The position numbers were made by a program, and so were the translations under genes. A stretch of DNA of 64,000 bases, from assembly GCA_022661535.1 (NCBI GenBank), contig JAKULF010000001.1, positions 4,030,001 to 4,094,000 on the forward strand, read 5' to 3'. The notes under the pieces are model-generated. The model ran no database searches, was not told the DNA's origin, and was given only the letters and a program-made list of their open reading frames with translations. The stretch comes from Eutypa lata (lineage: Eukaryota; Ascomycota; Sordariomycetes; Xylariales; Diatrypaceae). Positions 34,043 through 63,161 of the stretch are shown piece after piece (the stretch's first letter is position 1; each line of letters begins with the position of its first letter).

Positions 34043-35641
34043 ATGAGGGATATAAACGCATCCAGCCTTACGAAACCCCAAGGGGTAGCACCTCCATTAG
34101 GAGCAACGCCACGCAGCCTCCAGGACCCTCCCTCACTGGCTCCTTTAGCGCAGAGCCTTATGATCGTGACTTTGGTAATCATGTTCTTCTTTCTTGCCTT
34201 GCGTCTGTATATTCGGTTAAGAGTAACGCATTCTTTTGGTCTAGATGATTGTAAGCCTTCCCCCGATTGATTAAACATGACAAGTTACGCGCTAATGCAA
34301 TGGACCTTAGTCTTATGTATGATGTCGGCCGTAAGTAATCGATTTATACTAACTAATATACGGAATGTTCATTAACATAGTTTACAAGGCCATGATAACT
34401 GTCTATTGGGGTACTATGTTTTATGGTATATGCCAACCGGTTTTCTTTTCATTTGATTCAACCGCGTGGCCAGTATTGCTGATCGTAATAGCTGGCAACC
34501 CGTGGGATAACGAGCAGTGGATCACGCTGGCGACTCAAATGGTTGTCGCTACTATTAAGGTAATGGTACTAAGCCGTATTCTTTCTTCGAAATTCTCTAA
34601 AAATGACCTAGGCATCACTTTGGTCGATATGTACATACTGTGTAGCGGCAATCTTTCTCAAATCATCGCTAGCCGCCCTATATCTCCGGATCTTTCAACC
34701 ATCCAAAGGGGCAAGGGGTATTATATATATTTCTATCGTACCCATTTTGATATTCTACACCGTCGTCCTATTCGTCAGTATAGCAAAGTGCGTCCCAACA
34801 TTGGCGGAAGGGTCCAATGCGGAAACTAGCCCGGAAGACAACGACGTGTCGCATATATCCGATACACTTGAGATAACACAGGCCCGTACCGCGGCTGTAG
34901 ACATGTTAAGAGACATAGGTATTGCCATAAGTATTTTCAGTGTTATCACTGATTTCTACTTCCTCATCTTGCCAGCAGGCTTAATCCTTAACATTCAGCT
35001 TCCACCAAAGCGAAAACTGGGAATAAGCCTCATATTTCTCACAGGATTATTGTACGTGACGGTAGCCCATGAAACGTTTGGTGGGATTGTAGCTGACAAA
35101 AAGTAATAGGGCTTGTGCGTTTGCTATCGCAGGTACGATATGTCGCTTCAAATTATTTGATGGGGGTGACACCGTTTGGTTAGGAACTGTGACTCTGGGC
35201 TTGGGGTAAGTGTACTGATGAATCTGCCAGCTAAGAATATAGCTAATTATGTGAACGTGGAGTGTCGCGGAGATCAATCTTGCGATAGCATGTAGTTGCA
35301 TGCCCGTATGTTTTGCGGTGCTGCGGCGACTAGCAGTGGAAAAGGCATGGGGCTACTTCGTAGGGTTTGTCTCAATCAAAAGGACCGGGGGCGGTGGTTC
35401 TCTCATCAAGCGGCATTGTCATGAACTGGGGAACATTCCAGAAGAATACCTACCGAAAATCCCAAAGGCTACAATTACAGGATTGCGATCGTTCATACGG
35501 AAGGCACACCGTTCAAGGTCTAAATCGCCCATCGAACTATCTACGTACGCTAAACTCGCCTCAGTCGCCTCGATAGATGAGCATTATCACTCCTATTTAA
35601 AGGATTCCCGGGCTCTAGCAATTCCAAAACCTGTCTTGTAA
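34043..35641 (+). CDS. Fungal rhodopsin-domain (Pth11/SAT4-like) membrane protein, 5' splicing uncertain
   Basis: A model with exons 34043-34250, 34381-34559, 34612-35051, 35110-35205 and 35263-35641 closes in frame to 433 residues. Family hallmarks are a first helix followed by F-G-L-D-D, then A-I-F-L-K-S-S-L-A-A-L-Y-L-R-I-F, P-P-K-R-K-L-G, F-L-T-G-L-L-A and V-A-E-I-N-L-A-I-A-C-S-C-M-P. These are multi-helix plasma-membrane proteins, some with receptor roles. The first intron in this model (130 nt) swallows a stretch at 34286-34330 that reads like a normal second helix (Y-A-L-M-Q-W-T-L-V-L-C-M-M-S-A) but cannot be joined in frame on either side. The gene may therefore have lost a helix or be starting to decay. 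Confidence 0.65.
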
Positions 35642-40540: not shown

Positions 40541-42260
40541 TGCAAGGTAAACAGAAGTTGTGTGATTAGTGACATTTTACGTAAGTACCCGTAGTTTCTG
40601 TCACTTATGATATGGTCTTCTTTAAACTAAACTGTGGGGGTTCAAGGGGTTCTGACATTATGAACAAATATGCAAATTGACATGAAGATTGTGATGTGCA
40701 TTCACGCCTTACACTACGCTATGATATCTATACTATATATATTGTTTTTGTGTTCAAGGTACGGGCATTCATTAAGGTCTAGTGAGTTTATCTTAAAGAA
40801 AATTAGATCACAGCACAATTACGGAGGGGGGGGTTGTAAGGTCGGGGTGGCAGCACAGGACTATAATGGTCGATACCCCCTGTCCCTCTCCCGACCCAGA
40901 ACAAACTTCGATAACCCTTTCAATAAGGTACATCCCGAAGGTTCCTATTTAAAGTTAGTAAACCGGGTAGAAGTCAATATGTCCACGAGCGGCCCCTCAA
41001 ATGCAACATCCCGATCTCAATAAGATAGGTAGCATTGCAAATAAAGAAAAAGAGGGGTCATTTGCCTAGATCGTGTAGAACTTAAAGCCGGGAACTGAAT
41101 TATTTTCCTGTATACGGAAGAAAATTAAGAGAGCGCTGGAGCAAAAAGAAATGTTATTAATTGATAATATCATAATAGCTATCCTCATTAGGCGGGAGTA
41201 CAAAAGTAGGGCGTGGACGCTTTAGTCTAAGGCGATTACTACAGGACATCTTCCAGTGATATTATATGTTAGTTAAGTGCATCGTCTCCACATGCTTATA
41301 TAATGATTATGACTTCCTATAACGACTTATGTCTAGGGCTATGAGGGATTGACTCTAGGATACATTGTCACCTTCATTCCATTCGACGAGTAATGGGTTT
41401 AGTAGAAGCAGGGGATTATAAAAACAATTATAGAAAAGAGCAAATATAGGCCTTGCCACCTGATCACCTCCGCTGATACCAGATGCATCTACCCGGTTTC
41501 AAGCTTAATTTTCGGAACAGGGACGCACATTCAAGGTGAGTTAGACGAGAGGATACTCTTGAGATACTTAGACGTAGTTCCCTCGGATTCTTATCACCCA
41601 TCTTATCGAGGTACATCGAAACCTAGGAGTCATTGCCTTTAGGGTGAAGACCTCCCTAAACATTGCTATTATCACTGGCACGCGAACCGCTCAAAGAAAA
41701 TTATACATCTCCGAAGTTGCTAACTGGGGTGTTACTATTATGAAACGAAATCAGGATTTGAGAACTGCATGGCGGAAACGATTGGGTAATAGCTTGCGAT
41801 ATATAGCGCTGCAACCACGACAGCGTAGCCTTTAAGGTCCAGTGACTATAAACATCCCACCTAGTTGGTCGTGTCGCGATGGTGTGAAGCTGTCTGGCTT
41901 GCTGCAAATGCAACCTTCTCCGCATCTCGAGATAACGACATCCTTGGTATTGGCCTCATCCTGTTGCCTACTTGACAGATATGTACGTGGCGTTCACATA
42001 CAGGGTTTTGTACATTGACAGGTCAACGTTGTGGTATTAAATATGTCGTCGCGGGTGCCACACCCGGGCCAAGAAACGGTATGAACATAAGAGGCATATA
42101 TAACCCACACCCTATGAATAAAGTTTACTTGATCTAGGTCTTAAGTGACTTCTTTCATGTTCTTCGACAGCATATGTACTCATCATTGACCTAATTTTAA
42201 GTTACAACGTAGTTCACCACGTATCCCTCTCGGCGGCACAAATCAAAGACGTTCTACGAG
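40541..42260. other. Intergenic
   Basis: 1.7 kb with no supported gene. The last 200 bases upstream of the P450 contain TATA-like stretches (TATATAACCC near 42096). Confidence 0.5.
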
Positions 42261-43942
42261 ATGGGGGGCATTCTTGCATTCCCTATCAGCTTCAGCGTTT
42301 GGCTGGCCGTACTATATGCCATCGCGCGCCTTACCCAATTCTCACTGCGCTCGCTTCCAGGGAAACACTACCCTCCAGGACCACGCTCCTTCCCATTTAT
42401 CGGGAATGTGCTTCACTTTGCAAGCGATAAACCCTTCCTCCAATTTACCAAGCTAGGCAAAAAGTACGGCGAGATTGTCGGCCTCAAGGCAGGCCCTGCC
42501 AATATAGTTATCATAAACAGCGTAAATCTCGTCCGCGAGCTCCTTGAGAAACGGGGGCGCATCTACTCTGGTCGCCCTTTCGACTATATCCCCAAGGAGC
42601 ATGTCGTCCGTGACTCCAAACACATCGTCTTCCTCCAGAACGATGACTATCTACGGCAATGGCGCACGGCGGTCCGCTACATCCTCGGTTCCAGTGCTGC
42701 TGAGCATGTCTTACCATTGCAGGAGGCCGCTGCCGCTGATCTGATGATGAACCTGGTGGAGAACCCAGCTAACTTTCTCGAACAGTTTCGGGTCTGGGCT
42801 CTCATTGTACCGATGCGCACCATATGCGGCGACCGGACAGCCAGGAAGAACCGCGAGCTCCAGAATTGGTTCTTCGACGTTCAAGAAAAGTGGCTGAGCT
42901 TGCTCACTCCCGGAACAACGCCCCCTGTTGAGATCTTCCCAATCATGAAATACATGCCAGAGTCCCTCTCTGGATGGAAGCGGACCGCTAGATCCCTACG
43001 TAAGAACCAGACTGGCTTTTACTACATGATGCTTGACAAAGCGAAGAGGGAGTTTGAAGAGAACTCTGCGTCATCGGACCCGACTGCTAAAACGTACGAG
43101 TCATTAATGGCAAAGGTTCTAAGGGAACAGCAGGATGGCAAGAAGGAGTTTGACACTGACGGGCTTGCGTATCTCGGAGGTGGATTGTTCGATGCTGCTA
43201 TCGACACAACATACTCCTCCGCTCTGACCTTCATGATGGCCTTAGCTGCGAACCCAGACATCACGAAGCGGGCCCAGGCAGAAGTCGATGCTCTACACGG
43301 CTCTGATTTTCCTCCACGAGTCGAAGATATGGGGAGTTTGCCCTATCTCAAGGCCTGCTATCTCGAGGTACGTAAAGTCTTGCCATTGCCCAAATAAATA
43401 CCAACACACTAGTGTCACCGACTCACTAATAATGATGGTGTCAGATGTTACGATGGAGACCAGTTGTTCCGACCTTGCTACCCCACCTCCTAGAGACCGA
43501 CGACACCGTGGGAGGCTACCACTTGGAAAAGGGAACGGTGCTTATCCAAAACACGTGGGGCATAAACCATGACCCGGAAGTCTTCGAGAATCCGGAGGAG
43601 TTCAACCCCGACCGTTTCGTAGACAATCCCTACGGAACCAAGATGAGCGCGGACGAAGCAAGAGCTGCGGGGCGGAAGCAGACCTATATCTTTGGCGTCG
43701 GTCGCCGCAAGTGCCCCGGTGACGTCTTCGCACAGAACAGCGTCTTGTTGGCCATGGCTAAGCTTGTGTGGGGATTCAACATGATCCCAACAGCGCCGAT
43801 TGATACCGATGTAGAGACGGGCTTTCACGATGGCCTGGTGATATCGCCGGAGAATCTAAAGGTCGATTTTGTTCCACGGTCGGACGAGCATCGTTTGGCT
43901 CTTGTGAATGATTTTCAGAGACTGACTCACTTGCTTGAGTAG
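42261..43942 (+). CDS. Cytochrome P450 monooxygenase (OMST-oxidoreductase/CYP type)
   Basis: Two exons, 42261-43367 and 43445-43942, give 534 residues. An N-terminal membrane anchor precedes P-P-G-P-R-S-F-P-F-I-G-N. The I-helix reads D-A-A-I-D-T-T. The E-x-x-R motif is split by the intron (Glu369 at the exon end, Arg372 after it). The heme loop F-G-V-G-R-R-K-C-P-G-D has Cys459 as ligand. The layout resembles fungal secondary-metabolite P450s annotated as O-methylsterigmatocystin oxidoreductase-like. It lies 3.2 kb from the RiPP precursor, with a decayed membrane gene in between, so it may or may not belong to that cluster. Confidence 0.9.
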
Positions 43943-46310: not shown

Positions 46311-47128
46311 AACTATGGACCTCTATAGCTGCGGATAGTCGTTCTACCTTCAACGAAGAGGAGAATAGGATGGCGTTTCACTCTAGTGTCGTTGATTCTA
46401 GCCTGGTTTAGACCGGCCGAGTAACATGTATACGCTTTCACAAACGGAAGAAAGTCCCGAAGAGATACGCCCAATATCTCACTCTTAACTGGAGCGTTCG
46501 GGCCCTTTACAGGATACTGTTGCTACGCATTTGGGAAGCCAATTAATTATAAAGATCCGATAAGAGAATAGTTAATAGAAACTACATCAGATATTTCCCA
46601 GAAAGAGCAATATGACTAACAATACTTCCGGATGACGAAGGTGCTGCAATGGTCTTTTGCCCATGAGCTGAAAAGGAAACACTCTACATCCGACGTTAAT
46701 ATTTCTGAGGACAGATAGGGGTGCAGCATTGGGGAGACACGGAACGTCGTTCTAAGACTATTGCGGTTACTAGCGAACAGCTGTGGTACGAGCGACTTGC
46801 CCAGGTCCAGGCCTGGCCCATCGTTTGGAAGTTCATGCTCATGATTCCCTACATAGATAGTATAAGTGAATGGAACAGATAAAAACAGAGAGTATCTGAC
46901 AGGTGGTAAGTTCTCTTTGAAACTTGCGCCGAACGAATAAGCTAGTCGATCAAATGTTTGCTAAGCTTTAAAGAGTCACGTGGATTTTAAAATACAGTGT
47001 GATAATGAAATCATAGATTCACTCATAAAACTATAAACCTAGACACAACATCCTGATGATTACTCCACGGAACGCTCACATTCCCTATATTTACTCCCCA
47101 GAGCGCTCACACTTCCTATATGATTCCT
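46311..47128. other. Intergenic downstream of the RiPP precursor
   Basis: No gene supported. A short direct repeat of about 20 bases (CTCACAYTTCCTATAT-like) near 47075-47120 precedes the precursor stop codon. Confidence 0.4.
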
Positions 47129-47378
47129 TTAGTAGTCGGGGTAGATGACCTTTGCGTCTTCGTCAGAGCTGGAGACGGTTGCCTCGCGGCGGTAGTCGGG
47201 GTAGATAACTTTTGCATCTTCGTCAGAGCTAGAGACGGCTGCTTCACGACCTGAGCAGTTGGACATTAGTCAGAAGGTTACGTATGAAGGATATCAAGAT
47301 TAACGTACCGCTGATTGGAGGCGCGGGAGCGCACAGAGCGCAAGTAGCAAGGATGGCGAGAGAGAGTATGAACCGCAT
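47129..47378 (-). CDS. Dikaritin-type RiPP precursor peptide, two repeats
   Basis: Two exons, 47378-47309 and 47250-47129 (58-nt intron), give 63 residues. A signal peptide M-R-F-I-L-S-L-A-I-L-A-T-C-A-L-C-A and a short A-P-P-I-S-G linker lead into two 20-residue repeats. Each repeat reads R-E-(A/T)-V-S-S-S-D-E-D-A followed by K-V-I-Y-P-D-Y; the second is preceded by Arg-Arg, a Kex2 site, and the last Tyr is followed by the stop. This is the layout of ustiloxin/asperipin-type precursors: secreted, repetitive, acidic spacer, short Tyr-containing core at each repeat end. Three UstYa-like genes lie next to it. The core boundary (V-I-Y-P-D-Y or one residue longer) is inferred. The two repeats differ at 9 of 60 bases but hardly at protein level. 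Confidence 0.85.
47132..47251 (-). repeat. Tandem 60-bp coding repeat of the precursor
   Basis: Two adjacent 60-bp units, 47132-47191 and 47192-47251, differing at nine positions. Seven of these are silent or leave the core unchanged, and the codons for I-Y-P-D-Y are identical. Each unit encodes one spacer plus one core. Confidence 0.9.
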
Positions 47379-48535
47379 CGTCGACTGAGGCGTAAGAGTA
47401 CAAATAGACTCTATAATATCTTAGAGGAATGTACAAATGTTGTTGAAGTAGTCGAATTATGAGATTCACGTAGTTATCAAACTTAAATTCCACGCAAGCA
47501 AGCACATAGCAAAGAAACCAGAACCGTCCAAGAATTCGTCTCCCATCTACCCTTTAAGGCCTACTACGCCTACTGCGATCCTTACAATACCTCCTCTGCT
47601 CATACATGCGCCTGTATGTCTTGGGCGAATTTGTTATGCTCACCGCTATCGAAGAATCTATGCTGATGGGCAATCGTCACAGTCCCATTAAGCAGCACGA
47701 CATAAGACGGCCCAATGCAACGCAAGACGGCACAAAGATATGAACAATGGCGAATGGTGAAGAGCCAATATAATGGAACATAATGCAATATTGAATGCCA
47801 GGCATCATCTTTGGAGGATTCCGGCTGGGGTAAATGTGATGGCACCCGATACCACTGCAGTCATTCCCGGCCTGCTGTTGGTTCGCGGATTGTAGCTGCA
47901 TTCGGCAACCGCGCCCAGGACGTATTCGACGGAAGCGTGACACTAGTGCAGCAACGATAATTGAAAAAACTCATCTTTGATGATATCATTATGAACCGAA
48001 ATAAAAAAGGGCCTGGAATCTTGGGCAAAGGTTAATTAAGCAGTTAAAAGTCTACGTATATTTCTCCAAATTTATTTGGTCTACTTCGTATGAAATGGTG
48101 AATTAAGTCCCTTAGGATAAGTACCGTTTTGGTGGGCTATCATAGAAAAGTGTCACGTTTCCGTTAGTAAATACGTCCTGCCTTATCCCCCCGACGCTCA
48201 ATTCGCTCCCCGGGCACCTCCCGAGATCGAGGTGTACGGAGCCGGGGGTTTGTGTAATGTGGAGAGATTACTATGATGTAACCTCGCAGCCAAGCCAATC
48301 ACGATAGTAGACGACTGAACCAATAAACTTTAAAGTAAGCTCACTATCTTTAATATGTGGCTGGACGGCACTTGAAGAGTGGTCAAATCCTTTTGGATGG
48401 TGTTACAGGTATGCAGTCAGGGATCAATCACCGGCTGCACATTTCGTTTACGCCCTTTCACACCTTACCACACATTCCGCTGCAGAATTGTCATCCCTGA
48501 GCCTTGTACTATGTACATACTCACTTCACCCCCCC
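47379..48535. other. Intergenic between precursor and first UstYa-like gene
   Basis: No supported gene; minus-strand open frames at 47600-47943 have no features. It includes an inverted repeat at 48208-48247 and presumably the precursor promoter (a TATTATAG stretch lies just upstream of the start). Confidence 0.45.
48208..48247. promoter_or_regulatory. GC-rich dyad-symmetric element
   Basis: CCCCGG and CACCTC on the left mirror GAGGTG and CCGGGG on the right around a short centre, in otherwise AT-rich DNA. It could be a binding site for a dimeric regulator, a hairpin at the 3' end of the UstYa-like transcript, or a transposon end. Confidence 0.3.
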
Positions 48536-49534
48536 TTAGCCTCCGCCTTGGCCATCCAACCCTTCCCAGTATCGTGGCAAGGAATCAATGTCCCTCGGCC
48601 TCTCCTGGAACCAATCCTGCGCATACCCAAAGTACTTCCGCATAGGACCAAGAAAATGGCTACCCCGCGGGCAGTATCTGAACCGCTCGATAACGGCGTT
48701 GACGCCCTGCGTCTCGTTGATGTACGCGAAGCACGCCGTGTTCTCGTTGGCCCATTCCGTCAGGCGGTCCCAGCTACGGCACATACGCGTCTGGCCGAGC
48801 CCCGTGGTGATATTGGACGTTGTCGATGTGTAGAAGGGGGTGTCATCGGCTTCGCAAATGATGTTTTGCATCAGGTGATCCATGCAGTGCACCAAGTGAA
48901 TGTACGAGTCTAGCTGCGGGCGATCGTAGTTGTAGAGGACGATGGAGCGGCGAACCTTGCGCTGAGGAGATGAGTTTAGTAAACTTCGTATGAGGCGGGG
49001 TGGGAGGTAGAACATGTTTACCATGCAGTGTAGGCTGTGATGGCCGTTCAGCAGATAGATCTGGCGGCCTTCGTCCCAGAAGAAAGGTGCCGATTCTGGT
49101 AGATTGTGTGCGTCTGCCCATTCTCTGTCTAGGCTGATCTCGCCCGCGCTTGAGTCCATGCTTTCCCATGCGATTGCTCGCTGTTCTTCAGTGGTGCTCC
49201 CTGAGCCAAAGGGAGAATGTGAGTTGTACTTAGTTGGGACATCTCGAGGTAGGTGAGCTATAGGTAGAAGTCAGTATCTCAACAGAGAAAAGAATATCGG
49301 CCGGGCCGGATCGGAGAGGGGGTTACTACAGTATGGTGAAACATCTTGCTGTGCATCTGTTCTTCGCAAACTATTGACTACAAGACCAATGTTTAATAAT
49401 ATCGAGACAATGAGCAGAGTAATGACAAACGTCAATGCTTTAGATGATCCATGTTTGGGTCGCGAAAACAACTCCGCGTTGGTGTTCAGCGGTTCAGTCT
49501 CTTCTGGGAAACACGCCTCACTTTGGTCCTTCAT
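48536..49534 (-). CDS. UstYa-like oxidase 1 (DUF3328)
   Basis: Three exons, 49534-49330, 49257-49022 and 48961-48536, give 288 residues. A short cytosolic N-terminus precedes one membrane helix (A-L-T-F-V-I-T-L-L-I-V-S-I-L-L-N-I-G). The luminal part carries the two family motifs H-S-L-H-C (142-146) and H-L-V-H-C (169-173), the first followed by an intron that otherwise would break the usual spacing. DUF3328 proteins of the UstYa/UstYb type, copper-dependent in studied cases, oxidatively cyclise dikaritin cores, often by Tyr ether cross-links. The C-terminal part is longer and less typical (C-P-R-G, Y-A-Q-D-W-F). Same strand as the precursor, 1.2 kb upstream of it. Confidence 0.85.
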
Positions 49535-49842
49535 GGCCAGACTGTGCACAAGAGTTTGGGGGAGGGAGGGGGTGGAGGAGTAAAAAAGATCACTAAGGGG
49601 GCATTGACAAAGGAAAGATCGAAATTATGCCTACTAAGAGGGTACAAATCTCTGGATAATCCTTAGTCGGAAACTTAACGGGCATACAAGCGGGTGACAG
49701 GGGTCGACTGGGGTGCACCGATTTGTAAGTCTGCCACCCCATCTACAGCAATCACCACAGCCGTTACTGGCAAGGTTTAAACGTTCAAGTTAACACATTA
49801 TTCTATGCTTGGTCGTGTATGTCTTTGACTACACGCTCGTAT

Positions 49843-50755
49843 CTACATGCCATCTGGCTCTAGATTTGGATTCGTCAACAATACCATATCGGCGTCACTG
49901 ACCCTACGCGATTCTACCTTTTCCATCAGGTCCTCCCAGTCCACACAGACATGTTCGGGCGACTCCAACTTGAGCATGGGCTCTCGTCTATCCGCCGCCC
50001 AGTGGAAGGTCATTAGAGATGTGTCTGCGCGACACATCAAAGCCTGTCGGATCAGGTCCAGGCAATGATCTGGAAAGTAAAATTAGTCGGACCCGGGGAG
50101 CAAGCAATGGCAACTCTACTGTACTCACCAATATGTAAGAGCCAGTGTGGCGTCTCCTCAGGGCCGACTTCTGGATGATAGTGGTCACGGTAGATCCACT
50201 GGCGGAGATATTTCTGGAGCATGTTGGTGATAAACGTTCAGGTTGGGGGAGGAATAGTCGGGCAGTAGCTACTTACTACGCAATGCAACTGGTGACTCAC
50301 GTCCATCCAGACCAAAGAGCCCTGCCCGTTGGGCAGCTGAACCGAACTTTGGTTCAAGGACGTAAGCTCTCTGTCAGATGCGCGGATGTTGACGTGATCG
50401 AGCAATTTAGTCCATGCTCGATCGATATCTTTGCTAGGCGGGCCTGCGTATGGGCTCTCTCCGGAGAGAACAAAACTTTGCAGGCGGAGTGCAAGAGGCT
50501 CACCGTTCAAGACTGGACAGCTCGATTAGAAAAGAAATGCAGAGAAGGTGAAGAATGCTCACTTAGTGTGTTTAGGCGTGCACTACTACTGTGCAATGGG
50601 TATGCAAACAAGACGACTACGGTAAGGCAAACATAGAGAATGAAGAAAACTGTGTGCAAGAGTAGAGTCTGTCGGGGCCAATTCTTGTACAATGCCGCAT
50701 CATCGTCGTGATGCCGCAGAAAGTGCTCGTTCTCTCCGTTGTCACTGCTGTCCAT
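49843..50755 (-). CDS. UstYa-like oxidase 2 (DUF3328)
   Basis: Four exons, 50755-50563, 50512-50277, 50213-50129 and 50069-49843, give 246 residues. One membrane helix (V-F-F-I-L-Y-V-C-L-T-V-V-V-L-F) is followed by E-S-P-Y-A-G-P-P, D-x-x-W, and the two catalytic motifs H-Q-L-H-C (138-142) and H-I-D-H-C (170-174). The typical tail L-I-R-Q-A-L-M-C-R-A-D-T-S-L and H-V-C-V-D-W completes the family pattern. It is the most canonical of the three and probably performs a macrocyclising oxidation of the precursor core. It shares a short divergent promoter with the third copy. Confidence 0.9.
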
Positions 50756-51066
50756 CAGGGAACATTTGAAGATACAGGCAATATACAATGTAGTTGATTG
50801 GGAAACCATCGAATCTTTGGGTTGCCTTTTTCAAGTGTGGCCTTCGTGCTTTTCGCCCCCACCCCCACCCCCCATCATTGACTACTAACGTCTAACATAT
50901 CTTACCTTGGTCAGTTTTGGCCGGCAAGGATTCCAACCATCCGTGCATGCCGCTCCTATGCTACCATCAACAAGGATGAATGGTATTTATACCAGGTTGT
51001 TATCTCGTACATCTGTAGGATATCGACAACCGTCCCTCGACGCTTTCACAGTCTTCGCTCCCGAAA
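50756..51066. promoter_or_regulatory. Divergent promoter between UstYa-like genes 2 and 3
   Basis: 311 bp separate the two start codons. A C-rich run lies near the minus-strand gene and TATTTATA at about 50984-50991 lies some 76 bp before the plus-strand start. Such a shared promoter should switch both halves of the cluster on together. Confidence 0.5.
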
Positions 51067-51935
51067 ATGAACTTACTTGCTTGGCTTACTCCCATACGAT
51101 ACGATTACAACCTCTTGCCGGGCGACAATGACGGCAAAGGCTCGTCCACGCAGACTTCGACTACACACTCGTTCCGCGAATGGTTGGCCAAGACGGCACT
51201 GGTCTGCCTGCTTGTAATTTTCAGTTTTTTTGCGGGCAGGCTTTCGATGAGTGTGCCAAAAACTGAAGGAGCGAAGGCGTTCGGACGTGAGTCTAGCCAA
51301 GACACCTCCCTTGCCAGACCCACGGAACCCGGAGTGCTGACATAAAACTACCTTAGTCGAGACTAGAGACCAGTTGTTCCAATACAACCGTACTTTTGGA
51401 GAAGCCCCCTCCAATGCAACCGATGCTGCATGGGAGTCGTTGTTCCCTCAGCACGGTGGATTTTTCGTACATCCCAAAGTAGCACCGAACCGTTCCGCCT
51501 TTTCCGTCTTCCATCAGATGCATTGCCTGGTAGGTTTGATTTGTTCACCTAGCGCCAAGTTGCCAACAACACCGTTACACAACTGACGCTACGTAGGATG
51601 AGCTGCGGCATGGGTTCTACGTGCTCCACGAACAGGTCATAACGTACTCAGAAATGATCGACGGTCATCAAGAGAGGGATCAGAGCCACCGGGTAGAGCG
51701 GGGGAAGCAGGCACATTCGCTGGGTCACATTCGCCATTGCATCGACTTGTTACGGCAGAGCCTGATGTGTAACGCTGACCTGACAATAGAGCTGAAGAAC
51801 GAGGAGTTGGGAGGAGTGACTGGATTTGGCACGGTACATCGCTGCGTCGACTGGCCGGGTCTGTTGAAATGGATCCAGCCATACGAGGGAACTGATGCTC
51901 CCCCTATCCCCCAGGAGCATGACCACACAGGCTGA
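51067..51935 (+). CDS. UstYa-like oxidase 3 (DUF3328)
   Basis: Three exons, 51067-51286, 51357-51529 and 51597-51935, give 243 residues. One membrane helix (T-A-L-V-C-L-L-V-I-F-S-F-F-A-G) is followed by A-W-E-S-L-F, V-H-P, and the motifs H-Q-M-H-C (126-130) and H-I-R-H-C (175-179), then I-D-L-L-R-Q-S-L-M-C-N-A-D and H-R-C-V-D-W. Both motif sites are intact, so it should be an active oxidase. Three divergent copies suggest successive or alternative cross-links on the core. Confidence 0.9.
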
Positions 51936-52061
51936 GATGAAATCTTGTCCAAGCCCGTTTCACTCAATAGGTAGTGTACTTCATAGTTAGCTAGTACAGT
52001 ACAGAATCAATAGGAGCAGCACATTACAAAACACTACACCCGTGTCTTATGTAAGATCAGA

Positions 52062-53501
52062 ATGGCGACATTTGACACCACGAGCGTATCCGAATTAGAA
52101 CGGCTAGCTCAAGATATCGCGTCCAAAACGCAGGAGTTCATGACAGTTCTGCGCAGGAATGGCTGCGCACTGCCGTCGCATGACCCGGGCACTCCCAGGA
52201 ACGATGCCCTCCCGCTGGAAGCAACTACTTTGCAAAGCACATTGATGGAGCTCACAACAGAGCTACAGACTCTTGTCCAAGGTCCAAGATTGCACGTACA
52301 CAACCAGATCCTAGCAGTAAGCAGCCCTTCCTTTGCCTGCTCTGGCAGCTGTAACGGTTGATAAAACGACGACTGACGACACTTAAAGCATGTCAACTTG
52401 GTCAATCTACACGCCATTTACCAATTCAAACTCCCGAGCGTGGTGCCCGTGGAGGGCAGCATCAGTTACGCAGAGCTGGCCGAAAACGTGGAAGTAAGCG
52501 AGGATGTGGTTCGCCGCATTGCACGATATGCCATCACAAAGCACATTTTCCGCGAAGTCGACGGCGGCGACAGGCTCGCACACTCGGCTACGTCGAAGAT
52601 GCTCGCCGAGTCGCCAATGATGATGGAATGGATTGGAATGGTCTGCGAAGAGATGTGGCCTGCCGCAACGCAGGCGGTTCCAGCCCTAGTAAAGTGGCCC
52701 AAGTCGCAAGAGCCGCAACACTCGGTAAGTTGACAAGATGCGTTGCACTTAGGGAGGTCTCGGCTCATACAGAAACTATAGGGATTTGCACTCGCGCATG
52801 ACCTGCAGACTCACGTCTTCGACATGCTTGTGGATCAGCCTGAGCGGGCGGCGCGCTTCGCCAACGCCATGGTCTACTTCAACTCTAACGCGGACCTTGC
52901 GCCGCACCACCTGTGCGATGCCTTTGACTGGGAATCCGTTTCGCAGGTCGTCGACATCGGCGGGTCATCGGGCTCCACCGCGGTGGCTCTCGCCACACGC
53001 CTGCCGCGGGTGAGCATCATCATCCAGGATCAGGCGGTTCTAGAGGACCAGGCGCGGCAGTCGATCCCGCCGGCGCTGGCCGACCGAGTCTCCTTCATGG
53101 CACACGACTTCTTCCAGGAGCAGCTGGTGCGCGACGCCGACGTCTACCACTTCCGCTGGATCTTCCACGACTGGCCGGACCAGTACTGCCTGAAGCTCCT
53201 GCGGGCGCTGGTACCGGCGCTGAAGCCGGGCGCCAGGGTCGTCGTGTCGGACTTTGTTGTGCCCGAGTCCGGGACGGCTTCACGGTACAAGGAGGGACTC
53301 GTGCGGGGCTTTGACCTGGCCATGATGGAACTGTTCAACGCCCGCGAGAGGGAGCGGCGGGACTGGCAGCGGTTATTTGGCGAAGCGGATTCCTCGTTCA
53401 GATTTGAAGGCGTCAAGACTGTGCCTGGCGCCGATCTAGCCTTCATTTCGGCCACCTGGCAGCCGTTAAATAGAATGTTTAAAAGAACCTTATTAAATTA
53501 A
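52062..53501 (+). CDS. S-adenosylmethionine-dependent O-methyltransferase
   Basis: Three exons, 52062-52316, 52389-52724 and 52782-53501, give 436 residues. An N-terminal dimerisation/helix-turn-helix region (about 85-190) precedes the SAM site V-V-D-I-G-G-S-S-G (253-261) and the catalytic F-R-W-I-F-H-D-W-P-D with His326. This is the class II plant-like O-methyltransferase type common in fungal secondary-metabolite clusters. It lies 127 bp after UstYa-like gene 3 on the same strand. It probably methylates a hydroxyl (Tyr phenol or an introduced OH) or, less typically, a carboxyl of the peptide. Confidence 0.9.
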
Positions 53502-53890
53502 GGGGTTAATTAATACAAACGTTTTACATATAATTATTAATTTAAAATCAACTTATATTTATAATATATAAAAACTAATTAAAAATAAATAACTTAAAAT
53601 TAATTTAAATAATAATAAATATTCTTTTTAATTAATATATAAATTTATTAATTTTAAAATTAAATTTAAGTTATTATAAATTTATAACGGTTTTTATGTG
53701 TTTAATTAACTTAAACTTAATGCAGCATAAAATACCTGCAGACAAGCTACGGCGGCCTGAGATCTGAGGCAGCTCGGGTGGTACGTAAGGGACATTCCGA
53801 GGTCGTTTATTTCCAACCTGTCGTTTAATCAGACCTCCCACTCCGCAAGCACACTCAAGCTGCCATCCCTCCGACCACATTAAAGCCACT
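53502..53890. other. AT-only block between methyltransferase and P450
   Basis: About 53510-53720 is almost purely A and T, RIP-like. The remaining 150 bp before the P450 return to normal composition and should hold its promoter. Confidence 0.5.
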
Positions 53891-55519
53891 ATGACTGCCA
53901 TGTCGCTGCTGGCGCTGCTGGCGTCTTCTTTCGCAGCTTTTGCTGCCTACCGCCTGTACGTAACCTATACACTACGACTGACGGCCCAACAGCATGGATG
54001 CCAGCCCGCAGCCCGCTACAAGCATAAGGATCCCGTATTCGGTCTGGATGTCTTCCTGCGAACCGGAGATGCCATCGCCAAGAACCAGTTCCTGGTCGAA
54101 CACCAGCGGCGATACGATACATATGGCCATACGTTTGAAGCCCTGAACTTCGGTTCGCGTGCCATATCCTCTATCCACCCAGAAAACCTACGGGCAGTCT
54201 TCTCTAAAGATGCTGCAGACTGGGGCGTTCAGCCTCTACGACTACACAATATGAGCCCATTCTGCGGCACGGGATTCATCACGACCGACGGCGCTGACTG
54301 GAAGGTCTCCCACGACCTGCTCAAGCCCGGCTTTCACAGGTCCAACATTTCTGATTTCGGGTCCCTTGAAGAGCACCTGCGTATCCTACTACAACAGGTC
54401 CCAAAGGATGGCTCTAAGTTTGATTTACAGCCATATATCTTAAGACTAGTCTGTCTTACCAATCCTCTCCGACACTCTCAACGCACTAACATATGCGCTC
54501 TAGTATCTTGATTTGAACACGCTCTTTCTGTTCGGAGAACCTATTGGGATGCTTTCAGGCACCCCTCCATCACATGCAGAGGGCTTTTTGGATGCATTCC
54601 AGGCTGGCTTTCAGGGTTGCGGAATACGCATCGCCCTGGGACCTCTGAACTTCTTGATGCCAAAGGGCGCCTGGCTCAAGGCATGCGACAAGGTTCATAA
54701 ATTCGCCAATGTGTATGTCGATAGAGCTATCGAGTACCGTAACAAAATCAACTCGGACGAACCTAGCCAAGACAAAGCAAAGCGGCGTACTCTGCTTTTC
54801 AACATGGCACAAGCGACGGCCGATAGGACTGTTCTGCGGAACCAAGCAGTGCAGGCCATGATGGCAGCAACCGAGACAACCGCTTCTCTGGTCAGCCATG
54901 TCATCCGGAACTTGGCCAGTCACCCTACAATAGCTGCCCAAGTGCGAGCTGAAGTCCTGGCCGTGAGCGACAAGCCGCTGGATTTCGATGAGTTACCGCA
55001 GATCAAGTCCCTACAACATGTTATCACTGAGAGTATGCCTGCTAATATTTGGCTCTATACTGAACGCTATCGCTAACTTAATGACCAGCTCTTCGTCTAT
55101 ATCCTGTATTTCCGCAGAATAATCGTGTTGCTTTGAAAGATACAATTTTACCTACCGGAGGAGGCTCAGATGGCACTGCTCCAGTGTTCGCGGCAGCCGG
55201 CACTCTATTCGATACTTGCTTCGCTACGCTCCACCGCGACCCGAACATTTGGGGTCCTAATGCTAATGAGTTTTGTCCCTCCCGCTGGGAAAGCAATTTT
55301 AGCCCTCCCCCATTCACATTCATGCCATTTGGAGCTGGGCCTCGGCAGTGCTTGGCACAACAAAAGGCGACTATGGAGGTATCGTACATAGTATCACGGA
55401 TATTGCAGGAGTTTAGTGACATCAAAAGCGAGGAGGAGAAGCCCTATCAGGCACAGGTAGCTCTAACGGCAAAGAGTGCTCATGGGTGTCTTGTATCGCT
55501 TATCCCAGCTACGAGATAA
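53891..55519 (+). CDS. Cytochrome P450 monooxygenase (CYP52-like layout)
   Basis: Three exons, 53891-54448, 54504-55032 and 55089-55519, give 505 residues. N-terminal membrane helix, then a C-G-T-G-F-I-T-T-D-G-A-D-W-K style C-helix region, an I-helix M-A-A-T-E-T-T, and E-T-L-R (Glu362-Arg365, split by the second intron). R-L-Y-P-V-F-P-Q-N-N-R and the heme loop F-G-A-G-P-R-Q-C-L-A-Q with Cys450 follow. The helix motifs recall CYP52/alkane-hydroxylase relatives, found also in fungal peptide and terpene clusters. Same strand as the methyltransferase; likely a tailoring hydroxylase of the cluster. Confidence 0.88.
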
Positions 55520-56867: not shown

Positions 56868-58266
56868 ATGTACTCGTCTTACTCGGTTGCGGCCGCGGTG
56901 TGTAGCTGCGTGTTCCCGACCCTTGCTATTATTGCTGTGGGACTAAGGCTGAAGGCGCGCCTTCTGCAAAAACTGAAGTTGGGACTGGACGACTGGCTTA
57001 CGATTGCTGCGCTGGTAAGAATCGTATCCTATTTAGATCATAAGACATATGATACTAATTGTTCTTGCTATTTGGCAGGCGCTTGCTATCTCATACTGCT
57101 GCCTTGTTCTCTATGGCTCGTTCAACGCGGGTATCGGACAGGATCTGAGGTTTGTGTTGGCCCCTGAAAATTGGGCTTGCGCTGACCGCATGGTAGTACG
57201 ATTACCCCAGATGAGTATGCCAACTACCAAAAAGTCAGTCAACATCCACGAGGGAAGACAAGCTTAAACTAATCATACGAAACAGCACTTATATTTTGGC
57301 GTCATCGTTGCACATTTGTCCTACGGCTTCGTCAAGCTCGCCGTATTGCAGTTCTACAAGCGCATATTCGCAGTTCCGAACTTCCATCTATACGCGAACA
57401 TCACAATTGTCGTCGTAATCCTGTTCATGATAGCCGCCACGTTTGTAGGTCAATCTCAGAGGCCTTTTTCTCGTATTGCTATCACACGCTTACTTCCCGC
57501 CCTATAGACCCAGATATTTTCTGCTTGGCCCATCTATTACTGGTGGACACTAGGCAAGACTTATACTATCAACTACGGCGCGTTCCTTACCTCGTTTACG
57601 GCCATCGATCTCGTCCTTGACATCGTCATCTTGTGTCTTCCAGTACCGGTCATTCATAGCCTCAATATGAATAGGAACCGGAAGTTCCTGCTGCTGGGTG
57701 TCTTCTGGATGGGCTTTTTGTAAGATTATTAGTGTGTTACAATGGAGAAGGGTAAATTAATGTGAATCATAGCTGCGTCGTTGCAACTTCTGTTCGACTT
57801 TATTTCGGATACAAGCTGAGCGAAGCTGGATCTGGGCGGCCCGTGTCCGACCAAGAGTTCTCCTGTAAGCATCAGCCACCCTTTCCCCCAACATCCAGCT
57901 CAACGGAACCACATTTACTGACTGATACCAGACGTCTCCGTCAACAACGTAATCTGGGCTCAAGTGGAAAGCTGCTGCTCTGTCATCGCCGGTTGCTTGC
58001 CCACCTATGGCCCTCTTATACGCTCCTCGTCTTTCTCCGAGTTCGTCTCTAGCGTATTTAAGTCGCTTCTCAAGTCATTGAAACGTAAGAGCACCACTTG
58101 GTCCAGTAAACGCGACCAGACGGATGCATGGTACCCGCTTTCGGAGAACCATGGCAATTCTGCTACTGTCGGGAACAGTAGTAAGGTTGTTCTAACTGAA
58201 GATGATGGCATCCACGTTCAGCGGAGCCTGGATATAAATGTTCAAAGACATAATACACAAGTTTAA
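56868..58266 (+). CDS. Pth11-like rhodopsin-domain integral membrane protein
   Basis: Six exons, 56868-57014, 57079-57192, 57286-57444, 57514-57719, 57773-57864 and 57932-58266, give 350 residues. Family landmarks are K-L-G-L-D-D-W-L-T-I-A-A-L, V-K-L-A-V-L-Q-F-Y-K-R-I-F, A-I-D-L-V-L-D-I-V-I-L-C-L-P-V-P and W-A-Q-V-E-S-C-C-S-V-I-A-G-C-L-P-T-Y-G-P. Seven helices are expected. Such proteins sit in the plasma membrane and some act in sensing. A hydrophilic Ser/Lys-rich tail follows. Start chosen at the first ATG before the first helix. Its place beside the cluster may be chance. Confidence 0.8.
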
Positions 58267-61029: not shown

Positions 61030-61586
61030 ATGCACCAGCAACATGGAGGCTAAGGAAAAGGTTTTGAGAGTTTGGGGTGCTTTCCCTGGTGAAAAGGGGC
61101 AAATGTTATTCAGGTTCAGGGGGTGTGGGAATTGAATTAGAATGTTATGTTACACAAACACACAGACAAGTTCAACATCATCGGTACTGATCGGAGTGCA
61201 TATTTGCAGCCGATTGTCGTTGCTTCGATCAATCAGGAGTTGGTGTTGGAGGACCCACCTGCAAGCCGAGACCGAAACTAGGCCCGGGCCGGACTGACTA
61301 GCCGGTAGCACTAAGTTGTTTAGATAGGCATGCAGGAATAAAAGTTTTTTCGTTTTTTTCGCCGTTGGAACATCTGACTCTAGAGTCAGACTTACTTGAG
61401 TTCCAACCGGTGACACAGTAATACATTCTAGAGAAGGTCCCAATCGTTACTGGGCCACCCAGTATCTTTCATCTGAAGAGTGGGATTAGAACCATTCTTT
61501 TTGGTACAAAATAATATCATTATTAAATTTTTTCCTTTCATATAGTGCACAGTGTATAGGTACACATCACAATTCTCACAAGCAAA
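61030..61586. other. Intergenic
   Basis: No gene seen; the last 100 bases precede the MATE start codon. Confidence 0.45.
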
Positions 61587-63161
61587 ATGGGGTCTCACGG
61601 TGCTCCCCACGAGCCAGGATGGGGCAGCTTGTCCGCTACAGCCGCTACGGAGACTTCACCGCTACTGCGCTATATCGAGCCGGAACCGGAACCGGAGCAG
61701 GATCTCGACTTAGAGCCATCAAAGTCTCACATCATCACCAACCAAGTCACAGATGATGATGATGACGACGACGATGACGGTGGGGATAACGACAATTGGT
61801 GGTCAGAACTCCGCCTCCTAGCCCGGTACTCCCTCCCCCTCATCGCCACCTACCTGCTCCAATACTCACACAGCGTAATCACGACCTTCGTGGCGGGGCA
61901 CCTCGACGCCGACGCCCTCGCCGCGGCCAGTGTGGGCATGACCACGATGAACATCGTGGGGTACGCGACGATCGAGGGCATGGCGACGGCCCTCGACACC
62001 CTGTGCGCGCAGGCCTACGGGTCGGGCAACCAGCACGGCGTCGGGCTGCACGTGCAGCGCATGCTCGTGTTCATGGCCCTGTGCTGCGTCCCCATCGCGG
62101 CCGTGTGGCTGTTCTCCCCGCAGATCCTCGGCCTCTTCATACGGCAGCAGCACCTGGCGGCCATGGCGGGGGCCTTCCTGCGCTGGAGCATCGTCGGGCT
62201 CCCGGGCTACGCCGCCTTCGAGGCCCTCAAGCGCTTCCTGCAGGCGCAGGGCGACTTCCGCGCCGCGGTCTTCGTCCTCGTCGTCTGCACGCCCGCCAAC
62301 ATCGCCCTCAGCTGGCTCTTCGCCTTCAGCCTGGACATGGGGCTCGAGGGCGCGGCGCTCGGCGCCGCCCTGACCAACGACCTGCGCCCGGTCCTGCTCC
62401 TGCTGTACCTGGTCGTGGTGCCGGCGGGCCGCCGGTCCGTCGCCCGCGGATGGGGCGGTTTCGCGTCGCGCGGGGCCCTCTTCTCGTCGTCCTCCTGGGG
62501 CCCGATGGTGCGCCTCTCGGTCGCCGGGTCGGCCGTCAACCTCGGCGAGTGGGCCGCCTTCGAGATCGTCGCCTTCAGCACCTCGTACCTGAGCACGCGC
62601 CACCTCGCCGCCCAGTCCGTGCTCACGACGGCGTCCATCGTCGCCTGGCACGTGCCCTTCAGTGTCAGCGTGGCGGCGAGCACGCGCGTGGGCCACCTTG
62701 TCGGCGCGGGCCGGCTCGCCACCGCGCGCCGCGCCTCCGCCCTGTACGCCGTCGTGTTCCTCGTCGTGGGCTGCGTGGACGGGGCCGCGATCTACGCGCT
62801 TCGGAACACGCTCGCGAGCTTCTTCTCCGATGACGACGTCGTCAGGAGCATTGCTGTCGCGGCTACGCTGGCCGTTGCCGTGTTCCAGGTCATCGATGCC
62901 GTTATCTGCGGCACGAATGGGGTTTTGCGCGGGCTCGGGAGACAGGGCGTTGCGGCCTGGGTTGTGTTCGCCGTCAATTACCTCGCTGCGGTGCCCCTCG
63001 CTATATGGCTTGAGTTGGGCCCGCCAGGGTGGGGGCTGAATGGTGTTTGGATTGGTATTGGGAGTGGGATGGTGCTTATTGCTGTTATCGAGTGTGTTTA
63101 TATGAAAGCGCTGCGGTGGCAGGATTGCGTTGATGTGGTGAAGTTGAGAGAGGGGCTGTAA
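61587..63161 (+). CDS. MATE-family efflux transporter
   Basis: 524 residues, no intron. A cytosolic N-terminus of about 70 residues with an Asp run precedes 12 expected helices. MATE landmarks are L-P-L-I-A-T-Y-L-L-Q-Y, G-H-L-D-A-D-A-L-A-A-A-S, T-L-C-A-Q-A-Y-G-S-G (about 136-145), R-W-S-I-V-G-L-P-G and the mirrored V-G-H-L-V-G-A-G in the second half. It exports organic compounds by cation antiport at the vacuolar or plasma membrane. It is strongly GC-rich compared with its surroundings. As the only pump near the RiPP genes it is a candidate exporter or self-protection gene, which is inference. Confidence 0.92.
   Translation: MGSHGAPHEPGWGSLSATAATETSPLLRYIEPEPEPEQDLDLEPSKSHIITNQVTDDDDDDDDDGGDNDNWWSELRLLARYSLPLIATYLLQYSHSVITTFVAGHLDADALAAASVGMTTMNIVGYATIEGMATALDTLCAQAYGSGNQHGVGLHVQRMLVFMALCCVPIAAVWLFSPQILGLFIRQQHLAAMAGAFLRWSIVGLPGYAAFEALKRFLQAQGDFRAAVFVLVVCTPANIALSWLFAFSLDMGLEGAALGAALTNDLRPVLLLLYLVVVPAGRRSVARGWGGFASRGALFSSSSWGPMVRLSVAGSAVNLGEWAAFEIVAFSTSYLSTRHLAAQSVLTTASIVAWHVPFSVSVAASTRVGHLVGAGRLATARRASALYAVVFLVVGCVDGAAIYALRNTLASFFSDDDVVRSIAVAATLAVAVFQVIDAVICGTNGVLRGLGRQGVAAWVVFAVNYLAAVPLAIWLELGPPGWGLNGVWIGIGSGMVLIAVIECVYMKALRWQDCVDVVKLREGL

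Follow-up and report, generated by a model that had tools for sequence, protein, structure and literature searches.

The clusters closest to the locus of this study are those of the dikaritins, which are ribosomally synthesized and post-translationally modified peptides (RiPPs), and they are summarized here from the cited passages of each paper. In the ustiloxin precursor UstA, the cores have ED and KR flanks, and the release of the repeats, which precedes cyclisation, is probably due to Kex2 (PMC6514808). With oxygen and a dicopper site, UstY enzymes form the ether between Tyr-O and C-beta in asperipin-2a (PMC12186524). A survey of 1461 strains, whose criterion was at least three tandem repeats of at least 8 amino acid residues between Kex2 sites, identified 7878 Kex2-processed repeat proteins, 1758 of which had UstYa-type genes near them. 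The cores of this class were described as highly diverse, yet nearly 200 of the 838 precursor types spanned more than one genus (PMC7329392). Thus, a repeat precursor linked to UstYa genes is of a known kind, even if it is found in several genera. A ustiloxin-like RiPP cluster was also described in Hypomontagnella species, H. rubiginosum and H. pulicicidum (PMC8403587). In this study, a 64,000-nucleotide window of the Eutypa lata genome (C6:4030001-4094000; 54.5 Mb in 29 contigs) was analyzed, in which a first-pass annotation had proposed such a cluster at 47129..55519. The nearest homologs indicate the Xylariales or fungi close to them. Our results suggest that this locus is quite probably a dikaritin-like RiPP cluster. 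Clusters of this kind are already well known.

The predicted precursor gene and its two cores are located as follows.
47129..47378, minus strand: precursor gene, 63 amino acids, two exons (47378-47309 and 47250-47129), nine independent homologs
47192..47212, minus strand: core copy 1, KVIYPDY, then RR; position derived from the spliced model
47132..47152, minus strand: core copy 2, KVIYPDY, C-terminal; position derived from the spliced model

The intron was 58 bp long with GT...AG ends (47308-47251). The polypeptide possesses a signal-like N-terminus, as judged by eye, and two near-identical repeats, each of which ends in DEDAKVIYPDY; RR separates the two, and the second core is at the C-terminus. 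Each core contains two Tyr and two beta-branched residues. The homolog search returned ten proteins, nine of which were independent, as P0008 is the window's own product minus the first exon. The six named hosts were Xylaria cubensis, X. castorea, Annulohypoxylon stygium, A. maeteangense, Nemania sp. FL0916 and Trichothecium roseum. The raw tally was 27 cores in 11 sequences, in which the window was entered twice; leaving out the window precursor and P0008, there were 23 cores in nine proteins. KVIYPDY was exact in 19 of these 23 cores, and the other four, KIIYPDY, KFIYPDY, KVIYPDS and KVVYPDY, each carried one change. All 14 internal junctions were opened by RR, the last core formed the protein end in each homolog, and five of the nine homologs contained three cores. 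The residues preceding the core were DED plus A, S or T (19 of 23) or D-x-D-A (the other 4), and the sequence farther upstream drifted among the homologs.

The two repeats of the window differ at seven bases, and six of these changes were silent, an excess with a P of 0.0007 if all base changes are equally likely and of 0.007 if only transitions are considered. Among the six-frame open reading frames (ORFs) of at least 30 residues in the 64 kb, exact non-overlapping 12-residue repeats with at least 7 different residues were found only in the precursor. A looser scan for 6-residue repeats with a dibasic site gave one match in the window and two in 20 triplet-shuffled windows. The frame is short and has two repeats only, as might be expected of a chance repeat within a spurious small reading frame. 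However, the homologs with the same layout, the silent differences and the open spliced model all argue against such an origin, which is therefore hardly credible and was rejected as contradicted by the homologs. Given that nine homologs share the core and that the repeat differences are mostly silent, the predicted precursor is real and above chance at the level of sequence, as the first-pass annotation had described it. No second copy of the precursor was found in the genome, where the matches were limited to the window's two exons. The core had also been called unfamiliar, and neither VIYPDY nor KVIYPDY was matched in the relevant main texts searched, although the supplements (Table S2 of PMC7329392 and Fig. 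S3 of PMC8403587), which were outside this scope, could hold the family. The string IYPDY had one literature match, in a signal-detection paper, and was taken as a chance string. Just behind the precursor stop codon are two 31-bp direct repeats (window 47060-47121), which are unlike the coding repeats.

Five predicted enzyme genes follow the precursor, and the spliced models chosen for them and for the precursor were all open.
48536..49534, minus strand: UstYa-1, 308 amino acids, exons 49534-49330 and 49257-48536, PF11807 E 1.3e-20, motifs HSLHC and HLVHC
49843..50755, minus strand: UstYa-2, 246 amino acids, four exons, PF11807 E 1.1e-43, motifs HQLHC and HIDHC
51067..51935, plus strand: UstYa-3, 243 amino acids, three exons, PF11807 E 1.7e-23, motifs HQMHC and HIRHC, 55 homologs
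52062..53501, plus strand: PF00891 methyltransferase-fold protein, 436 amino acids, three exons, PF00891 E 2.2e-30
53891..55519, plus strand: cytochrome P450, 505 amino acids, three exons, PF00067 E 3.4e-51

As had been noted before, each of the three UstYa proteins contained exactly two HxxHC motifs. The UstYa-1 donor has an alternative position 3 bases further in, and the first donor of UstYa-2 is uncertain, giving 246 or 237 residues. UstYa-2 and UstYa-3 were 25.7% identical over 210 residues, and UstYa-1 matched the other two well only around the second motif, so that the three are distant paralogs. Among 47 aligned relatives of UstYa-3, 45 had two HxxHC motifs and 2 had one, and the His and Cys columns of the motifs were invariant or at least 90% conserved. 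The identities of UstYa-3 were 74% with its homologs of A. maeteangense and Seiridium cardinale, 70% with that of Nemania sp. FL0916 and 58–72% with those of Stachybotrys and five Dothideomycetes (three of these five over 64–71% of the query). A sequence search of the PDB for the UstYa fold gave a best match at E 0.32. For P0011, the relative from A. maeteangense, an AlphaFold2 model (mean predicted local distance difference test score 75.7, predicted template modelling score 0.61) matched no PDB entry at E<=0.001, the best value being 2.5. A copper site in these proteins is thus suggested by analogy with the published work on UstY enzymes (PMC12186524).

The PF00891 protein had been called an O-methyltransferase. 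While the fold was found, its closest solved relatives were 7bqj and HpiI (7bqo), followed by 8pha and LepI; HpiI and LepI are presumably pericyclases of the same fold, and we take 7bqj to be one as well. An O-methyltransferase as the established identity was therefore rejected. At the aligned positions, the PF00891 protein has H-D-W, compared with H-K-E in 7bqj and HpiI and R-D-F in LepI, which mildly favours methyl transfer. The matches of an NCBIfam scan were all far below the cut-off. The authors of PMC12048977 state that, until their lichen clan, no dikaritin cluster with an O-methyltransferase had been reported.

The P450, also named before, had at least 62 homologs at E<=1e-80 in a search that scored the 7999 candidates with most shared words. 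The identities were 80–89% in the 17 closest relatives, 76% in Stachybotrys, 64–74% in six Dothideomycetes and 46–47% in two lichen fungi. Between the PF00891 and P450 genes is a very A+T-rich stretch (window 53502-53720) with an imperfect 26-bp repeat at 53530-53620.

Similar to the window precursor, that of the ustiloxin B (ust) cluster has a signal-like start and repeated cores with acidic (ED) and dibasic flanks. Besides a P450, ust encodes two proteins of the UstYa type and a methyltransferase, whose counterpart in the window would be the PF00891 protein (PMC6514808). Different from ust with its 16 repeats and KR, the window cluster has two repeats, RR and another core, and none of the ust tyrosinase, two flavin monooxygenases and pyridoxal-phosphate enzyme was seen next to it. 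Phomopsin (phom) is similar in its signal-like start, its repeats, its several UstYa-type genes (five, PMC7329392) and its hexapeptide product; it differs in having eight repeats with KR, a tyrosinase, an S41 peptidase and EDYxI, the motif of ustiloxin and phomopsin repeats (PMC6339444). This motif was absent from the repeats of the window precursor, and membership in the ustiloxin/phomopsin subgroup was rejected for this reason. The asperipin-2a (apr) system resembles the window cluster in its Tyr-rich hexapeptide core, UstYa-type cyclase and four-gene cluster without a tyrosinase (PMC6514808, PMC12186524). However, the asperipin-like gene set that had been proposed was an overstatement, as apr comprises a single UstYa-type gene together with genes for a reductase and a transporter (PMC6514808), compared with three UstYa genes, the PF00891 gene and the P450 gene in the window, and the cores differ. 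The epichloecyclins (gigA) share a secreted repeat precursor, a UstYa-type neighbour and Tyr and Lys in the peptide (PMC6514808, PMC7317419), but the gigA cores vary between strains and the four-gene cluster includes kexB, whereas the window cluster has no kexin and contains the P450 and PF00891 genes. Finally, the lichen RiPP clan R1 also has UstYa homologs with two HxxHC motifs, beside an O-methyltransferase to which the PF00891 protein may correspond, although a search of the lichen clusters revealed no repeated motif that was conserved (PMC12048977).

The genes are arranged as precursor (minus), UstYa-1 (minus), UstYa-2 (minus), UstYa-3 (plus), PF00891 (plus), P450 (plus) and a PF20684 gene (plus), which is described below. 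As the contig size given for each record is the longest in its 90% cluster, equal sizes for two genes are a good but indirect sign of a shared contig. For five of the eight species named in both homolog lists, UstYa-3 and the P450 had contigs of the same length.
Stachybotrys elegans: 2138361
Pleosporales sp. CAS-2024a: 190162
Lentithecium fluviatile: 2054010
Melanomma pulvis-pyrius: 31621
Psora testacea: 15055

In Pleosporales sp. CAS-2024a and Psora, the locus tags of the two genes are two apart, leaving room for one gene, as in the window. Two of the six named precursor species, A. maeteangense and Nemania, were also in the UstYa-3 list, and the precursor and UstYa-3 contigs of A. maeteangense were both 1963375 long. 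The linkage of precursor to enzymes in other species is thinner than that between UstYa-3 and the P450.

Several results weigh against a dikaritin-like cluster. The UstYa-3 and P450 contigs differ in the other 3 of the 8 species (Bimuria, Pseudovirgaria and Lachnellula willkommii), and the precursor contig of Nemania sp. FL0916 (22649) differs from its UstYa-3 contig (176623). The other four named precursor species are not in the UstYa-3 list, and all six are absent by name from the P450 list; both lists hold one representative per 90% cluster. No 8-mer was shared by at least four of the six upstream stretches searched for a common promoter element. None of 23 tyrosinase matches in the genome was on C6, and an exon-by-exon search for S41 peptidases gave no match at E<=0.001. 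With two repeats, the precursor is also below the threshold of the Kex2-repeat survey (PMC7329392), which suggests that the survey may have missed other two-repeat clusters. Moreover, UstYa-type enzymes occur in non-RiPP pathways (PMC12048977). The strict dikaritin gene set, as cited in PMC12048977, includes a tyrosinase, a methyltransferase and a transporter or peptidase among its criteria. The three UstYa/DUF3328 proteins, with PF11807 matches above the cut-off, and the precursor, in which a signal-like start precedes repeated cores set between dibasic sites, correspond to the broad UstYa-based definition, to which an oxidative side-chain cross-link in the product, here a predicted one, also belongs, and the lack of a nearby tyrosinase, S41 peptidase and EDYxI separates the cluster from the strict one. 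Thus, the UstYa genes and precursor layout of the earlier proposal were retained, and its ustiloxin- and phomopsin-like gene set was considered overstated.

The same results bear on whether two separate neighbours are present, with the block of UstYa-3, PF00891 and P450 genes serving another pathway, e.g., a non-ribosomal or polyketide one, and the precursor being an unrelated secreted repeat peptide. The occurrence of UstYa-type proteins in non-RiPP clusters, the different contigs in Nemania and the wider distribution of the enzyme block, which was found in more lineages than the precursor, are in line with this arrangement. However, no non-ribosomal peptide synthetase, polyketide synthase or terpene cyclase was found among the 20 long open frames scanned in the window, the precursor resembles known dikaritin precursors in its ED/dibasic layout and has two Tyr per core, and the equal contigs of A. 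maeteangense argue for linkage. In addition, annotation often misses short precursors, so that a narrower precursor list is expected. We consider separate neighbours unlikely.

We infer the product, cross-links and function of a dikaritin-like cluster as follows. The precursor would enter the secretory path, where a Kex2-type protease would cut after RR, and trimming of the basic residues would give peptides ending in DEDAKVIYPDY. Release by Kex2 is suggested by the UstA-type layout of the window precursor, with DED and RR in place of ED and KR. The acidic DED stretch may serve enzyme recognition and then be removed. The UstYa oxidases may cross-link the core, most simply through a bond between the phenol oxygen of a Tyr and the beta-carbon of a different residue of the core; one ring would correspond to a loss of 2 H and two rings to a loss of 4 H. 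The calculated [M+H]+ values are 769.3767 for VIYPDY (-2H 767.3610, -4H 765.3454, -4H+CH2 779.3610) and 897.4716 for KVIYPDY (-2H 895.4560, -4H 893.4403, -4H+CH2 907.4560). The P450 and the PF00891 protein would tailor the peptide. The predicted product is a cyclic peptide of about 6–9 residues that contains VIYPDY, and a role in defence or competition is the default guess. In at least four named genera the core hardly differs, which together with the high P450 identity makes a shared, testable product likely.

The coordinates 47129 and 55519 correspond to the stop codons of the precursor and the P450, respectively. The conserved unit, however, appears to extend past this range to about 58.3 kb, as one more gene is likely a cluster member.
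56868..58266, plus strand: PF20684 (Fung_rhodopsin) membrane protein, about 350 amino acids, about seven exons, PF20684 E 5.5e-46, spliced model open

Its membership is suggested by a Pleosporales fungus in which a PF20684 gene likewise adjoins the P450. The annotation of the P450 record there, P0089, shows a fusion with a PF20684 domain, and the second half of P0089 matches window 57076-58257 with 42% identity over 398 columns, introns included. The window protein has six hydropathy segments over the cut-off. The cross-linked peptide could be a hormone-like signal common to several fungal genera, with the PF20684 protein as its receptor or sensor. The nearly fixed core with drifting spacers, the place of the PF20684 gene beside the P450 in both fungi, the six hydropathy segments of the window protein and the published speculation on a hormone role for some Kex2-processed repeat peptides (PMC6339444) are consistent with such a signal. 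However, PF20684 genes are numerous in the genome (at least 156 matches), and 327 Pth11-like receptors from 212 species have already been placed in biosynthetic clusters (PMC12842992, the cited passages of which do not mention PF20684), so that adjacency proves no ligand. Because mating-factor or pheromone precursors almost never had UstYa-type neighbours, with three exceptions (PMC7329392), a signal with its receptor is improbable. If true, it would be a peptide-hormone circuit built from mycotoxin-type machinery, and would explain both the fixed core with drifting spacers and the receptor-like gene that travels with the P450. As a dikaritin-like cluster, the locus offers for study a three-UstYa system that has no tyrosinase close by and may include a receptor gene.

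A further piece of a PF20684-type gene is located at window 34612-35064 on the plus strand (C6:4064612-4065064), well away from the cluster. About 3 kb left of the precursor is a second P450 (window 42213-43939, plus strand, PF00067, two open frames), which may or may not belong to the cluster. About 3 kb beyond the PF20684 gene is a MATE-family transporter (window 61560-63158, plus strand, PF01554), which could be a cluster export gene.

Among four further UstYa stretches of the same genome that were examined, two had a repeat precursor beside UstYa genes, which is in line with a dikaritin-like cluster in the window. In the first (L033, G000:C2:3452500-3462400), an ORF from about 3091 on the plus strand encodes a second dikaritin-like precursor, whose cores, e.g., VDYNTLG and IDYNRLG, are set between KR sites, with a UstYa gene within about 2 kb. 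In the second (L035, G000:C6:2194401-2204300), an ORF from about 3246 on the minus strand encodes a third repeat precursor with long repeats, VEEVDAGLFTSLDGVWASYGYDE, then KKKR; one word occurs six times, and several UstYa matches surround it at 2.187-2.201 Mb of C6.

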